From positions 372,001 to 436,000 of the forward strand of contig MJGA01000008.1 of assembly GCA_001910725.1 (NCBI GenBank): a DNA stretch of 64,000 bases, written 5' to 3'. Positions 57,548-64,000 of this stretch are shown here, one piece after another. Position 1 is the first letter of the stretch. Each line of letters begins with the position of its first letter. The notes beneath the pieces were generated by a model. It ran no database searches. It was given only the letters and a program-made list of their open reading frames with translations, and was not told the DNA's origin. A program made the position numbers and the translations under genes. Source of the stretch: Phanerodontia chrysosporium. Its lineage: Eukaryota; Basidiomycota; Agaricomycetes; Polyporales; Phanerochaetaceae.

Positions 57548-60500
57548 TTACAGGAGAAGTTCTGAGTAAGTTACATTTGTTGTCACGTTACTGTCTACCT
57601 GTGGAAGGAGGAGCTTCGCATGAGAACGGTGGCGGATCCGCGAGAGCGCGGTGTACAGCTGGCCGTGGGAGAACACGGGCTGTGTGAGATCGACGCCAAC
57701 GCGGTCGAGCGTGAGGCCTTGGCAGCTGTGAAATGTAGTTGAGTACGCGAGGGCGAGTGGGTACTGTCGACGAAGCAGAGTATATCCTGAATGTAGCTCG
57801 TGCGTGAACGTGATGCGTGGGATGAGGAACTCTTCGTGACTCTCGGTGTCGGCGAGATGTGACGAGCTCTGGCGTAGAATCCTAACGGTGATAAGACGAT
57901 CTCCGATAGCGGTGACAACGACACGGACGTTCTTGACTAAGCCGCGGTCAATGGAGAAGTTGCGAAGAACGCGGTAAACAGCGTTTGTTTTGATAGATAG
58001 TGCGTGTGGGGGAAGACCAGGGGGCGTGTGCCGCGCGGCGTAGTCGAGAAGACCGGTTGCTTCAGCTGGGGAGTCAACGTTGGCGTCGTCGGCCTCTTTC
58101 AGAGAGTCTGCAGCGAGATATGTGCGGGAATCACCGTGAACGTTCTGCACAATTGCGTCGTTGTACGTATCGACCTGACGGTTGGTGGGTGCGAGAATGG
58201 CACGTCTTGAACATGCCGCAGGGTCCCGAAGTAGCGAGAGGGGGAAGACGAAGTCGATGAGATCATGGCTGGAAGATGCGTGGTCGAGGTGATGTAAAGA
58301 TACCTCAGGCCCCGCACCGTCACCAATGTCGTCGACAAACGCTGCGAACTGGGGGTCCTGTGCGTTTCGTATGGGAAGAGTCAGTTGAAAGACAGTAAAA
58401 AGAGGCCAGAGAGAAGAAGTTTTGATGGACGCCTGAATGATGTCAGCCTTTCGACCACCTCTTACAACGGGGGCGGTCTGGCGGAAGTCACCGAGAAGGA
58501 TGACAACCTTGCCACCGAAAGGCAGATGTTGGTTTTCACAAACGTCGCGCAGCGTAGCGTCGACGCATGCGAGAACTGCCTTGTTTGCCATTGGTGCTTC
58601 GTCCCAAATGATAAGCTTCGCATGACGAAGAAGCTCTGCACGGGAGGAGTGTGCACTGATCGGAGATTTGAGAAACTCGTTGTTATTGTTAACAGGTACC
58701 TGATAAAGGGCGATGAGCGTCGAATGACTTAGAAGCAGGGTCAGACTGTGGAAGAGCACCTTGAACGTGGAGTGTGTTGTGCGTCCTCCCGGATACAATT
58801 GAGCTGCGTAGGCAGATGTGGCAGTTGTGAGAACAACATGCTGTTGAGCACGAAGAAAGTCGCAGATTGTGTTGATGAGAAAGGTCTTTCCTCGACCGGC
58901 CTTGCCATCGACGAAGGCGAGCAGAGACGTGTCGTTTGCGACAGCAGAGGTGACGATGTCAAAGATTGCACGCTGTTCACTGTTCAGCAATGACAGGGAG
59001 GTCGAGGCACGGGAGGCAATAGCGTCGAGAGACGGATACCATCTCTGTAGTTCATGCTCAACTTCGGCAGCATAGGTGATGGGTTCGGGGAGGCCGTAGT
59101 CAGATAGAGTTTTCCCATGCTCTTCGAGCAGGAGGGATATCTGTTGAAGAGCATGATTAACACCGAGAGCAGTGTGACCATTGTGGACAATGACGAAGTC
59201 ACGGGCAAGGAAGTCGACGATGCCGTCCCAGAGTGTCGCAGGGGTTGCGATGCAATCATTGACCAGTAAATGAGCGAAGAGAACACGTAGCTGATGTGGT
59301 GTGCTCAACAAATCGATGGCCTCTCGCATCGCAAGCTCGCCTTCGTTCACTTCCGCGAACAGGCCAAGCGCAGATGCAGCATGTTGAAAGGAGGGAAGCT
59401 GGATGCCATCAACAGTGAGTAAGTCAATGAAGCTTCGTGTCGGTCGACGTTGCAGTAGCGAGCGAATGTAGAAACGTTCACCTTGAGAGGGTCGCACAGG
59501 TTGAATGCGGCAGATGTGTTCGAGGGCTGCAGTGCGGAGAAGGACATGCATTCGAGCAGTGTCCATGGTGCCAGACGGGTAGTGTTCATTAAAGCAGTTT
59601 GGACGTCCAATGTTTGTTGCGTTGTACGTGATGAGGCGGAAGAGAGTGAAATATTCGGAGTAGGTAAGTTGATCGAACGAACGTGTCTGGCCATCTCTGG
59701 TGGTGAAAGTGCCAATAGGACGTGCGAAGTATCTCTCAAGGAGAGAGAGAGAGGTCGTGGTAGCGTCGTCCGAGTGCTGACCATATCGGCGGTGAACAGT
59801 GGACTGCGGAAGATGAACGGGAAGTGCAGTGACAGATGGCTGCTTCTTCGTGACATTGAAACCTAGGATGCGCCAAGCAGCTTCTCCTGCTGAAAGGTAA
59901 CGTGCGCTCCAATACTCCTCAATCTCATCAAATGGTTGACCAGGTGCTCGAACAGTGTAATGAGCACGATCAGGTCCTATTTGAACGATGTGAGAATGTA
60001 ATTTCTAAACAGAAAATCAATTTGCGCAACATACCTTTGTGAATGTACTTGAAGATGTACTGAAAAAGATGAGAGGAGTTCGCTGCCTCGAAGTTGATGT
60101 GACAGTGAAGAGCCCTAAGCAGCGGAAGGCAGTGGGGTACAACCATGGAGTCGTCTGCATGACGTCGACGATAGAGAACACGACCGCCGGAATCGATGGT
60201 TGTCTCAGAACGAATTGGATGTGGATAGTTAAAGCGGCAGGTTCGAGTTCCGTTCATCTCGCGCTGACAGTATCGCGCAAGCGTACGGGAGTCGGGAGGA
60301 GGATGTTTATGCATCATGTGTTCTTGCACCAATCGACGGTCGTCAGCATCTTCAGGCAGCTCTGCGGAGATGACTGTGTCGATAGCGGCAGGAGATGTAC
60401 AATCAGCGCTATACTTCAGGAGGATGTGGGCATGTGGCAAGCCTCGCTTTTGGAACTCGATCGAGTGAATGAAGTAGACGACACGACCGGCATGCGGAAA

Positions 60501-61175
60501 CATGGAGGTGAGCAGCTGCTCGAGGCGGCGAAGTTTTTGTTTGAAAACTCGAACGACAATGAGAGGGATGTGTGTGTGGGTTTGACCGGGTCGTAGTTGA
60601 GAGACTATTTCAGGCCAATTGGGATTGCAGGTGACTGTGATGAAGAACGTGGGAGCGCCGTACTGTGCAGCCAAAGCAAGCGAGTCTGAGATTTGCTCGG
60701 AAGCCCATCGATTAGAGCCTAGAAATGATGACGGAAGGTATACGTTTTCATTCGGTTCTACGGAGACATCGCCCATGAGTTCGGCATCCTCTCGCATGAT
60801 GACGTGCTGATTTTCGCGGATGTAGTTGAGGCGGCACTCCAAGTCGCGAGTGAACATGTCCACGAGATACTCGTTGGTGAGACGTCCGAAGATTTGAAAA
60901 CGTTCGTTGTGAAGGAGAAGGACGCGATAGTACCACATTTGAGTGGCGGTACGATCAGCGACATGGGGAGGGGCGTCTCCATCATGATGAGGCCGTATGT
61001 CAGCGATATCTCCGTAGACACCCCATCCAAGGGAACCAGACGGAAAGAAAAGCGGATATGCGAGAGGCTCCCAGAGGCGACTTATAGTGGGGATCGCGTG
61101 GATGTCGTCGTCGTTGCGACGAATGATGAGACGACGAGCACGTACTTCTTGCATGGCCGTGTTCTCGTACGACAT
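57548..61175 (-). CDS. Helitron Rep-helicase, one intron, N-terminus apparently missing
   Basis: Rolling-circle transposase/helicase. Exon 1 (61175-60035) carries the Helitron-like N domain: PLAYPLFFPSGSLGWG, FFITVTCNPNWPEIVSQL, the HUH nuclease motif in GLPHAHILLKY, and the tyrosine region FQYIFKYIHKG. A 58-base intron (60034-59977, GTATGT...AAATAG) joins KYIHKG to GPDRAHYTVRAPGQPFDEI in frame. Exon 2 (59976-57548) ends in a PIF1-type helicase: Walker A VDGKAGRGKTFLI, Walker B LIIWDEAPM, GDFRQTAPV, ILAPTNRQVDTYNDAI, and TFHSCQGLTLDRVGVD with GQLYTALSRIRHRSHAKLLL. The frame is open through both exons, so the copy may be recent. Upstream of HTPEVAAFM the frame is closed by a stop, so the first part of a typical Rep protein is missing or separated. 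Start at 61175 is the first ATG, not a proven start. Confidence 0.88.
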
Positions 61176-61200
61176 GAAGGCAGCGACCTCCGGTGTGTGT
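57548..61200 (-). mobile_element. Helitron (autonomous-type, 5' part lost or displaced)
   Basis: Defined by the Rep-helicase gene; the outer limits are unknown. A Helitron 3' end should show CTRR preceded by a short hairpin left of 57548. I saw AAGTGGTCACTT at about 57498-57509, a small palindrome, but no convincing terminus. On the right, Helitron similarity stops at about 61200, only about 65 bases from the LTR retrotransposon. Confidence 0.75.
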
Positions 61201-61309
61201 CACAGTTTTTCGTCTCAACCCTTAGGGTTAGGGGCAGCAGGTGACAGAAGCGGTTACTCCGAACTGTGACATGCAGAAGCGCTGGAGTGACAGCCCTAGG
61301 CTCGGGGCT

Positions 61310-61349
61310 GGTCACGTGATACGGCGGTCACGTGATGCGCACACGTGCG
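61310..61349 (+). promoter_or_regulatory. Two identical E-box repeats (GGTCACGTGAT) plus a third CACGTG
   Basis: GGTCACGTGAT occurs at 61310-61320 and again at 61326-61336, 16 bases apart, followed by ACACGTGC near 61341-61348. CACGTG is the core site of fungal bHLH factors such as Cbf1/Pho4 types. Just upstream, CAGCCC and GGGCTG (61291-61310) form a short inverted repeat. Confidence 0.6.
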
Positions 61350-61465
61350 GTATCCCAGGGTCACATGGTCGAAGGTCTAGAAGCAGGCAAGGGTCTGGAA
61401 GCGCCGAGACACTCCGGAATGGACTAGAAAGCCCTGGAGGTCTCTGGACAGGTCCGGACAGTGCT

Positions 61466-61485
61466 GGAACGTTCTGGAGGTTTCT
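61466..61485 (+). promoter_or_regulatory. Heat-shock-factor-type element in U3
   Basis: Four contiguous alternating pentamers read GGAAC GTTCT GGAGG TTTCT, that is nGAAn nTTCn nGAGn nTTCn. Three are perfect HSF pentamers and one has a single mismatch. It lies about 130 bases upstream of the TATA box. Confidence 0.6.
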
Positions 61486-61494
61486 GGGACATCG

Positions 61495-61530
61495 TAGGAA
61501 CATTTAGGAACGTGTAGGAGAATGTAGGAA
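61495..61530 (+). repeat. TAGGAR repeated four times at exact 10-bp spacing
   Basis: TAGGAA at 61495 and 61505, TAGGAG at 61515 and TAGGAA at 61525, each with GT or TT before it; a partial TAGG follows at 61537. The spacing places all copies on one face of the helix. Confidence 0.75.
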
Positions 61531-61615
61531 TGCCTGTAGGGCACTAGCCAATAGCGTAGTAGGTATTAGATAGCTAGGACCCTGAACACCGGTCCCTGGG
61601 GACCTGGTGCACATG

Positions 61616-61623
61616 TATATAAA
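61616..61623 (+). promoter_or_regulatory. TATA box of the LTR promoter
   Basis: TATATAAA preceded by ATG (61613-61615), the last ATG before the long ATG-free tract. Transcription should start about 25-40 bases downstream, so that ATG would not be in the RNA. Confidence 0.7.
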
Positions 61624-61739
61624 CCCTGAGGGCTGGGGGTGCCTCCCCAGCTTCAATCTCATCGCATCTCACCTCTCTAGTCTCTATACCTCGTCTTCAA
61701 GCTTGGCTACACCCTTTGTAGTCCAAGTAAACCTTTGCC

Positions 61740-62919
61740 AGTGAGTATTGCTGGTTGGTTTGGTGTATAGGCGCTAGGGCAGCGCATTTTTGTGATAGAA
61801 GATTGAAGCTAGCCAACCTACTCCACCTTTGGTGGCCTAGGTTATTGCTTTGGGTTCTGGGGGCTTGTTTGAACAAGTGCTTTTGCGCTTTGTTCAGTTT
61901 TCTGCCGATCCACAGGCGTAAGTGGGCACTATAGTACCTTTTTAGGTACAGACAGGGGAACGTGGTGTAACCCACCTCAGAGGGCTTTGCCTGCGGACGA
62001 GTAACCCCTGTTGTAGTGCTGGACTAAGGGTGTAATACCCTGTCCAACCAGTTTTAGCTGCGTGGCGTGGAAACCCGCAGTAATACCCCTTTCTCTTCGT
62101 TGAGGGTTGGCTGGCAGGAAAGCCTTGCGCTTTGCCTGTGTGGAGAAGTTTTCTGGCTTGTGTACACAGGCTGACCCGTGTTTACTAGTGCCTAAAGCTG
62201 CTAGGAACCGTTTTGTCCTTGCTAAGGACGAGAGCTCTGGCAAACCCTTGCTTGAGCGCATCAAGATCTCGAACCTTCACCGCTTCAAAGACGTTGGGAA
62301 GCCGCGCCCTGCGTACAAGCCTCGCACTACACCCTACACCCCTGTCCCTGGTCGTCGTGAAAGGCTTGCTCGTGAAGCAGACTTGAACGACTTCAAGCAC
62401 CAGCTTCAGCTCGAAGACTATCGCAACGAACAGCGCAAGCGCCGCCTACTCGATCGCATCGCGAACGCCCCTCCCCCTCTACCCCTCATCGAACGTATTG
62501 AACCTCCCCCTACTCCCCCTATCGAAGTCAAACCCATTCCCAAAGACCTTCGCTTTCACACCAACACTCAGGTCCATCAGCTGCGCGACTACGGACGAAA
62601 GTTCAACGGCGCCCTTAACCACTTGGGTCCGTTCTTTCAGAAGCTAGACGAGCAGCGTTTTCGAGTTGGGTTGACTGAACACGAGCTCTACACCTTGGGC
62701 TTGTTCAAGGAGAGGTTCGACAACATTCGCAAACACCTTCAGACCATCGTCGAGACGAAGGAGTACACCACGAGGGAGTGGAAGAAGATTTCGAGGGATT
62801 TGAAGAAGGCAGGCGCACATAGCTTCGCTGAGCTTAAGCCACGCTTCGCTGAGCATTGCAGGGAGCTGATTCAGGAGTTGGGTGAAGATTGGTTGTTTTT
62901 GGAGAAGAACCTCGATTAG
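61740..62919 (+). CDS. Leader-encoded accessory ORF of the retrotransposon, start codon created by splicing
   Basis: The open frame ends at TAG 62917-62919 and has no ATG codon over its whole length. If intron 61741-62188 is removed, A61740 joins TG62189-62190 to give GCC-ATG-CC (G at -3, a good context) in exact frame: MPKAARNRFVLAKDESSG and onward, 243 residues. The product is basic at the N-terminus, has a Pro-rich middle (PPPLPLIERIEPPPTPPIEV) and a helical charged C-terminal half (HELYTLGLFKERFDNIRKHL, KKISRDLKKAGAHSFAELKP) ending WLFLEKNLD. It is not a known Gag, protease or chromodomain protein. It stops 29 bases before the Gag ATG in another frame. A real product is supported by the open frame and composition; its role is unknown. 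Confidence 0.6.
61741..62188 (+). other. Predicted 448-base leader intron of the retrotransposon
   Basis: The donor GTGAGT (61741-61746) is a canonical fungal site, the same one used by host genes here; branch-site-like CTGAC is at 62171-62175; the acceptor TTTACTAG ends at 62188, 14 bases after the branch A. It is much longer than the 50-60-base host introns. Because the DNA copy retains it, the RNA that was reverse-transcribed was unspliced. Confidence 0.55.
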
Positions 62920-62948
62920 TTTTTGTATCTGCGCGTTTTTGAATCAAG

Positions 62949-64000
62949 ATGTCGCTCAATTCAAATCCTGTTGACTTTGGTTTGCGTTCTGCTTCGAGTT
63001 CAAGTGGCATGGACCCTTGGGGAGCGTTAGAACTCGGCTCTATGGCTGAGGGAGGCCCTACCCCAGTTTTGGCCGCTGCGCCGCTTTCGACCTCTTACGA
63101 AGAGTACAGCCAGTCATGGGTACAAGCCGCTCAGGAAGGACTGACTCCTGGCGACTTCAAGGCCCTCGTTGACAGCCTGGGTAACTGGGTAAAGGCTGAG
63201 ATAGCTCAAGTAAGGTCGGAAATGGGTTCAGAAGTCCTTCGCTTGAAGGAAGCCCTTCGCAAACGCAAAACTGAGGCCAAGACACTTCAGGAGCAGATAG
63301 ACACTCTTGAGCAGACTAGACAGCACTTGTCTGCGCAGATAGCAGAGGCTCAGAACCAAAATCGCGTTTTGCAGAACGCTATGCAGGTGCTGAAGCAGGA
63401 GAACGAGAGCTTGAAAGTGTTGGTTCAGCAAGGCACTAGTGGAGGCAACGTTGGGTTGTCTCAGTCTTTGTTCCCTACCATGAAGGAGCCTGACACCTTT
63501 AATGGTGATAAGGCTAGTAAGCTGGATGACTGGCTCGAGTCGATGGCACTCTGGTTGCGCCACCGTGGCGTAATGGACGACGAAAAGAAGATAGAGACGG
63601 CGATGACTTACCTGCGAGGTTCAGCAAAGAAGGTCATGCAAGAGTACTTCGACAAGGTGGCAGACTCAAAGCCCCTTGGTACTTGGACCAACTTTGTGAA
63701 CGAACTCCAGAAAGGATTCCAACAGACCGACAAGAAGGACAGGGCAAGGGCAGAGTTTGAGCAGCTTGTCAGCAAGAAAGGAACGAACGAGAAGACTTTC
63801 AATGAGTTTGCTGCTCGTTTCCGTTCGCTGGCTCGCCAAACTGGCTTCTCCAACGAGGAACTGTTGGTCAAAGCCTATGCCCATACCCCTCGTGCCGCCG
63901 CCGATGTACTGGCAGCCCGTGGTCGTGCTCAGTGGGCTACGACCTGGGATGGTTGGTTGAAGGATGTTCAGGAGATTCTGCAGGATCAACGTCTCTTGAC
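62949..64000 (+). CDS. Gag polyprotein of the LTR retrotransposon, 3' end outside the window
   Basis: Open from ATG 62949 (MSLNSNPVDFGLRSASSSSG) to the window end, at least 350 residues without a stop. Residues about 80-155 form a coiled coil (EALRKRKTEAKTLQEQIDTL). From about residue 175 the Retrotrans_gag capsid-like domain follows: FPTMKEPDTFNGDKASKLDD, WLESMALWLRHRG, AMTYLRGSAKKVMQEYFDKV, WTNFVNELQKGFQQTDKK, ARAEFEQLVSKKGTNEKTFN, EFAARFRSLARQTGFS. It packages the genomic RNA in virus-like particles. In unspliced RNA its ATG is the first from the cap. Confidence 0.88.
   Translation, partial: MSLNSNPVDFGLRSASSSSGMDPWGALELGSMAEGGPTPVLAAAPLSTSYEEYSQSWVQAAQEGLTPGDFKALVDSLGNWVKAEIAQVRSEMGSEVLRLKEALRKRKTEAKTLQEQIDTLEQTRQHLSAQIAEAQNQNRVLQNAMQVLKQENESLKVLVQQGTSGGNVGLSQSLFPTMKEPDTFNGDKASKLDDWLESMALWLRHRGVMDDEKKIETAMTYLRGSAKKVMQEYFDKVADSKPLGTWTNFVNELQKGFQQTDKKDRARAEFEQLVSKKGTNEKTFNEFAARFRSLARQTGFSNEELLVKAYAHTPRAAADVLAARGRAQWATTWDGWLKDVQEILQDQRLL

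Follow-up and report, generated by a model that had tools for sequence, protein, structure and literature searches.

A putative intron holding the primer site may assemble the start codon of an accessory gene in a Ty3/gypsy-type retrotransposon of Phanerodontia chrysosporium

The DNA analyzed in this work, referred to as the window, is a stretch of 64,000 nucleotides of Phanerodontia chrysosporium (G000:C124:372001-436000), and genomic searches were done on the 39.0 Mb (145 contigs) of the same genome. The window holds the 5' end of a young, multi-copy LTR retrotransposon of the Ty3/gypsy type, in which the following elements were located:

61193-61197, + strand: target-site duplication GTGTG; the same five bases are found directly after the 3' LTR of this copy (L095)
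61198-61797, + strand: 5' LTR of 600 bp, TGTCACAG...TTGTGATA, delimited by LTR matches and by the 3' LTR ends of five elements
61616-61622, + strand: TATA box, TATATAA, read in the sequence
61649-61659, + strand: AGCTTCAATCT, predicted self-primer at the presumed RNA 5' end, beginning 33 nt downstream of the first base of the TATA box
61649-61740, + strand: putative exon 1 of 92 nt, whose final base would be the A of the split start codon
61741-62188, + strand: putative intron of 448 nt, predicted from sequence, with donor GTGAGT (61741-61746) and acceptor TAG (62186-62188)
61800-61810, + strand: primer site of the self-priming type, AGATTGAAGCT, inside the predicted intron and complementary to the predicted RNA 5' end
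61906-61925, + strand: conserved 20-nt leader block, CGATCCACAGGCGTAAGTGG, with a donor-like GTAAGT at 61918-61923
62171-62175, + strand: branch-point motif CTGAC, kept in 61 of 62 copies
62189-62919, + strand: accessory open frame, from the TG of the split start to the stop codon TAG (62917-62919), with no internal Met
62949-64000, + strand: gag, with a frame that continues beyond the window and an ATG that is the first of the unspliced RNA

With the LTR as query, at least 41 matches were obtained (40 of 251 candidates scored), beginning around TGTCACAG, that is, at 61198. An LTR end at 61740, as contemplated in the original prediction, was discarded: the 3' LTRs of five elements extend beyond that position, with homology ending at 61797 in three of them and the match running only 1-3 chance letters further in the other two. 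With its end at 61797 the LTR measures 600 bp, and the predicted donor therefore lies 57 nt inside it. Target duplications of 5 bp agreed in the four copies with both flanks read (GTGTG in the window copy, AGTTC, CTCCG and CTCGG), and the element measures around 8.1 kb, one copy extending from C65:31027 to about 39126. The region 61200-62930 gave at least 40 near-complete and at least 5 partial matches in the genome (40 of 239 candidates scored). On the - strand, a Helitron-type gene (Helitron_like_N and PIF1 helicase) spans 57548-61199, and the copy in the window has inserted into its 5' part.

No tRNA-type primer site was seen by eye directly behind the LTR. The 11 nt at 61800-61810 are perfectly complementary to 61649-61659, with which they pair in the predicted fold; the latter segment would be the 5' end of the RNA if its start is taken, as we predict, at 61649. 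The proposal that the primer region is contained in the intron is supported by the sequence, even though the LTR boundary on which it had been based is not; since the primer site is within 61741-62188, removal of the intron would take it out. The gag frame matched Retrotrans_gag with 34.3 bits, above the cut-off of 24.1, and Ty3_capsid with 26.1 bits, below the cut-off of 29.1, and a 528-codon open gag frame is found in most sibling copies. The pol region of the window copy, including the integrase, lies beyond the window end; matches to the integrase H2C2 zinc finger were found in sibling copies within 1385-codon frames (e.g., C1:1974444 and C13:499661). In a chromodomain search examined by eye (150 of 337 candidates scored), none of the matches listed was in a copy of the window family on its strand, and one was in a second family, designated family B, which is considered below.

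A feature of this element is the absence of ATG on the + strand in the 1300 nt between 61649 and 62948, in agreement with the claim that unspliced RNA would have no AUG ahead of gag. In this region 9.07 ATG would be expected from dinucleotide shuffles and 18.70 from base-composition shuffles, and none of 2000 shuffles of either kind was free of them. When the parts were considered separately, 62% of the dinucleotide shuffles of exon 1, 1.45% of those of the intron and 0.4% of those of the ORF had no ATG; the 1050-nt portion of gag in the window has 18. Synonymous shuffling of the ORF with its own codons gave a mean of 1.81 ATG and 9.6% of sequences without any, so that codon choice contributes little to the lack of Met, while with uniform synonymous codons the mean was 4.99 and only 0.06% had none. 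ATG is absent from 48 of the 59 genomic copies that cover both leader and ORF, the remaining 11 having between 1 and 7.

The accessory frame could acquire its start codon by splicing. At the donor side the sequence reads CCA/GTGAGT (the slash indicating the predicted splice site), the A being 61740, and at the acceptor side CTGAC is followed by TTTACTAG/TGCC, with AG at 62187-62188 and TG at 62189-62190, so that the A and the TG flank a consensus GTGAGT...CTGAC...TAG intron as originally described. Joining 61740 to 62189 gives GCC-ATG-CC, confirming that the resulting ATG has a good context and is in frame with 242 Met-free codons, for a protein of 243 residues. In the DNA the junction codon is GTG, and no stop interrupts the frame in the 28 codons that precede it (from 62104). 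An acceptor at the exact end, a nearby branch motif and an A/GTRAGT donor coincided in 0.03% of 20,000 dinucleotide shuffles of 61649-62188, or 0.08% of 20,000 with an A/GTRNGT donor, these motif classes having been picked after the sites were seen. On its exon side (CCA) the donor is weak, and 448 nt is long for a basidiomycete intron. The fold of 61649-62240 has a z value of -6.15.

Alignment of the junction sites across family members had been proposed as a check, and was done with 65 rows from 62 places, after dropping 25 of L031-L060 that corresponded to the same places as L001-L030. In the 62 rows with both splice regions, A/GT and GTRAGT were present in all, CTGAC in 61 and AG/TG in 60, although this persistence is weak evidence of conservation, since most copies are 98-100% alike. 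One of the two exceptions is missing a base and the other (L068) has AATG at the acceptor, and hence a contiguous ATG. L069, which at 79% over the region is the copy that has diverged most, has GTAAGT as its donor and retains both CTGAC and CTAG/TGCC. Retrocopies of the spliced RNA were searched for with the junction 25-mer, with 0 matches in the genome at up to three mismatches, as expected if spliced RNA is not copied.

The accessory ORF gave 127 tblastn matches in the genome. For the 14 copies with 8 or more changes, uncorrected dN/dS with respect to the window ranged from 0.08 to 0.41, which is supportive only, as transition bias lowers the value and some copies are decayed. Low protein identity in certain copies (e.g., L065, C56:144-863, 70%) could not be attributed to age, because it was associated with small deletions at around 99% DNA identity. 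Such deletions, located in C-rich runs of the accessory ORF (62471-62539), were found in 19 of 25 rows (L061, L065-L067, L069, L070, L072-L079, L081-L085), often in copies 98-99% identical to the window, and are probably assembly or slippage errors.

When the start was searched for in its ATG form, allowing one mismatch, 76 genomic places were obtained and all 76 read GTG; this search misses copies with more changes, such as L068. This uniformity would also fit the main rival explanation, which we regard as unlikely, namely that there is no splicing and that GUG (62188-62190) on full-length RNA initiates the accessory frame, with most ribosomes leaking past it and scanning onward to gag, in a manner comparable to that by which ORF III of rice tungro bacilliform virus (RTBV) is reached. 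Initiation of this kind would explain the AUG-free stretch. In RTBV, translation of ORF I begins at a non-AUG codon. A lack of internal AUGs in ORFs I and II of that virus aids leaky scanning across 900 nt (PMC5902531). However, the GUG has a poor context, with C at -3 and +4, it is preceded by 16 GTG, 12 CTG and 19 TTG in the putative intron upstream, and the acceptor, the branch motif and the A/donor would have to be there by coincidence (0.03-0.08% of shuffles). Splicing at 61741 is thus the reading that we prefer.

The choice of donor deserves consideration in view of the conserved leader block. CGATCCACAGGCGTAAGTGG was found at 126 genomic places with no more than one mismatch, versus 0 for its reversed control, and it is identical in a family B place (L100), while the leaders otherwise barely align and the Gag encoded downstream in family B copies is only around 26% identical to that of the window family. 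The block carries CCAC...GTGG arms and the GTAAGT, which is kept in L069. Rfam gave no match on 61190-63000 up to an E value of 5, and the block was not found in viral contigs. It might act as a true donor or as a packaging or structural element, and we consider it the strongest point against simple use of the predicted 61741 donor. The leader might be spliced from the donor-like site at 61918, or from another one, with the accessory frame starting otherwise; an A/GT at 62081 (GTAATA), for instance, would likewise give A/TG with the 62188 acceptor. We find this improbable, since joining 61918 to the 62188 acceptor results in GGC/TGCC, with no AUG, and splicing from either 61918 or 62081 keeps the primer site, so that retrocopies might be expected, but a search allowing one mismatch revealed none that starts with a contiguous ATG.

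Family B came to light in a search with P0007, one of the relatives of the accessory protein, which among the matches listed revealed further genomic places with a distant version of the ORF; the leader of one of them, L100, gave at least 40 matches (40 of 43 candidates scored). The ORF of L100 starts with an uninterrupted ATG right after ACACAG, in a stretch rich in ATGs, and the split start is therefore not universal in the wider group. On the reverse strand of L100, moreover, a motif, ACCTGTAAWAGG, recurs ahead of the ORF, and there is a sequence, GCGCATCAAGATTCGAACC, that is similar to the T-arm of a tRNA in antisense and matches part of the ORF in the window at 19/20 positions.

Three protein searches yielded 30 database relatives of the accessory protein; identities are 23-69%, except for P0001, a JGI entry that is the window's own sequence. 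The relatives with species names are from Postia (Rhodonia) placenta and Obba rivulosa. In 28 of the 30 the first residue is on the column of the predicted split codon, the exceptions being P0006, which begins later, and P0018, extended upstream of its MPK. Because the relatives start in that column, the position of the protein start is supported independently of the splice signals. The first residue is M in 26 of these 28 (MPK in 23) and V in two, P0001 and P0022, the latter an Obba rivulosa gene model labeled 'partial' and 54% identical over 62%. A printed V fits a codon made of the presumed intron's last G plus TG. Since gene callers of the bacterial type also render GTG starts as M, a printed M is no proof of ATG, and that of P0002-P0005 may correspond to GTG. 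These data bear on a further alternative, that the A/TG arose by chance and no separate protein is made from the open frame; the existence of 30 related proteins, the low dN/dS and the starts in the same column make this very improbable.

A protein tree was built with 24 of 31 rows (P0019, P0021, P0023-P0026 and P0029, fragments or fusions, were omitted). Nine rows without internal Met and P0022, with one, grouped at 100/100 support. In this clade, to which the window's protein belongs, 9 of 10 members have no internal Met, where 3.3 to 4.9 per row would be expected at 2% Met, whereas all 14 members of the sister clade have between 1 and 6 (P0018 counted with its extension). The strict label of no internal Met requires two changes on the tree. 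No Pfam family scored above its cut-off with the accessory protein. Its model is helical (mean pLDDT 74.1, pTM 0.45) and had no structural neighbors in PDB or BFVD at E ≤ 0.001, and no relatives were found in viral contigs, prokaryote genomes, phages or plasmids. A role together with Gag or RNA is a guess.

Altogether, we consider it likely that splicing of the 448-nt intron assembles the accessory AUG, while unspliced RNA serves both as genome and as Gag mRNA. Transcription would begin at about 61649. In the unspliced RNA, devoid of AUG before gag, scanning ribosomes would reach Gag, and the primer site would be retained, allowing the molecule to function as genome. Removal of 61741-62188 would place the A of exon 1 next to TG and create the first AUG, in a good context, so that the spliced RNA, with a 91-nt leader ahead of the assembled codon, would direct synthesis of the 243-residue accessory protein and, with its primer site gone, could not be reverse-transcribed. 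Being long and structured, the intron may be spliced inefficiently, leaving full-length RNA. With somewhat less confidence, and slightly inclined in favor, we propose that a fungal clade of self-primed elements has purged AUG from a 1.3-kb leader and accessory gene and split the start codon across the intron that holds the primer site, so that a single splicing decision would fix the fate of the RNA.

According to the original prediction, no described element was known to build a start codon in this way, which turned out to be incorrect. In the errantivirus gypsy of D. melanogaster, splicing makes the env start codon from the AT of the 5' site and the G of the 3' site (PMC2585583). The creation of a start codon by splicing is thus a known principle, and the case is alike in that gypsy also belongs to the Ty3/gypsy superfamily; the element studied here would likewise rely on splicing of genomic RNA to assemble the start of a further gene. 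In gypsy the donor lies within the gag region, the product is Env and the codon is divided as AT/G, whereas here the whole predicted intron is upstream of gag, starts inside the LTR and holds the primer site, the division would be A/TG and the accessory protein is unrelated.

Other systems share individual traits. Tf1 of fission yeast is not known to have a leader intron or an accessory gene. The first 11 bases of Tf1 RNA are complementary to its primer site (PMC7175516), as 61649-61659 is to 61800-61810 here, given the assumed RNA start. In RTBV, a leader donor is used to express P4, whose start derives from a leader uORF spliced to a distal ORF (PMC5902531); the likeness is in the long AUG-free stretch that lets ribosomes scan to a downstream gene, but in RTBV, unlike in our proposal, the upstream ORFs are read by leaky scanning and the P4 start comes from the leader uORF. 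In BARE1 of barley and in copia, splicing splits RNA between translation roles and genome (PMC3735527), although the spliced RNA favors Gag and no start codon is made. Extra ORFs in the same position, between the 5' LTR and gag, are present in Ogre and in the Drosophila MDG1 group (PMC1142308, PMC11952523); MDG1-group transcripts showed no splicing in that region (PMC11952523), and in 2005 the authors describing Diaspora indicated that no intron upstream of gag was known to them in any retrovirus or LTR retrotransposon (PMC1142308). Our literature search was directed to splice-made or split start codons and to extra ORFs before gag; in the excerpts available only gypsy env matched, and none described the combination proposed here. 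Within that scope, what is new here is the predicted intron upstream of gag, with its donor in the LTR, the AUG-free leader and the unnamed accessory family.

The question of how a retroelement apportions a single RNA between translation and replication has yet to be answered. If the mechanism proposed here is true, this division would be readable from sequence, as the cut that creates the start codon would also remove the primer site, and the nearly Met-free clade beside its Met-bearing sister would offer a natural comparison for the origin of such a switch. The analysis also outlines an unnamed accessory protein family of retrotransposons, at least partly from polypores. In two of its entries, P0019 (Rhodonia placenta) and P0024, the gene models continue past the accessory protein into a Ty3-type capsid, either through an error of annotation or because the two ORFs are really joined by splicing.
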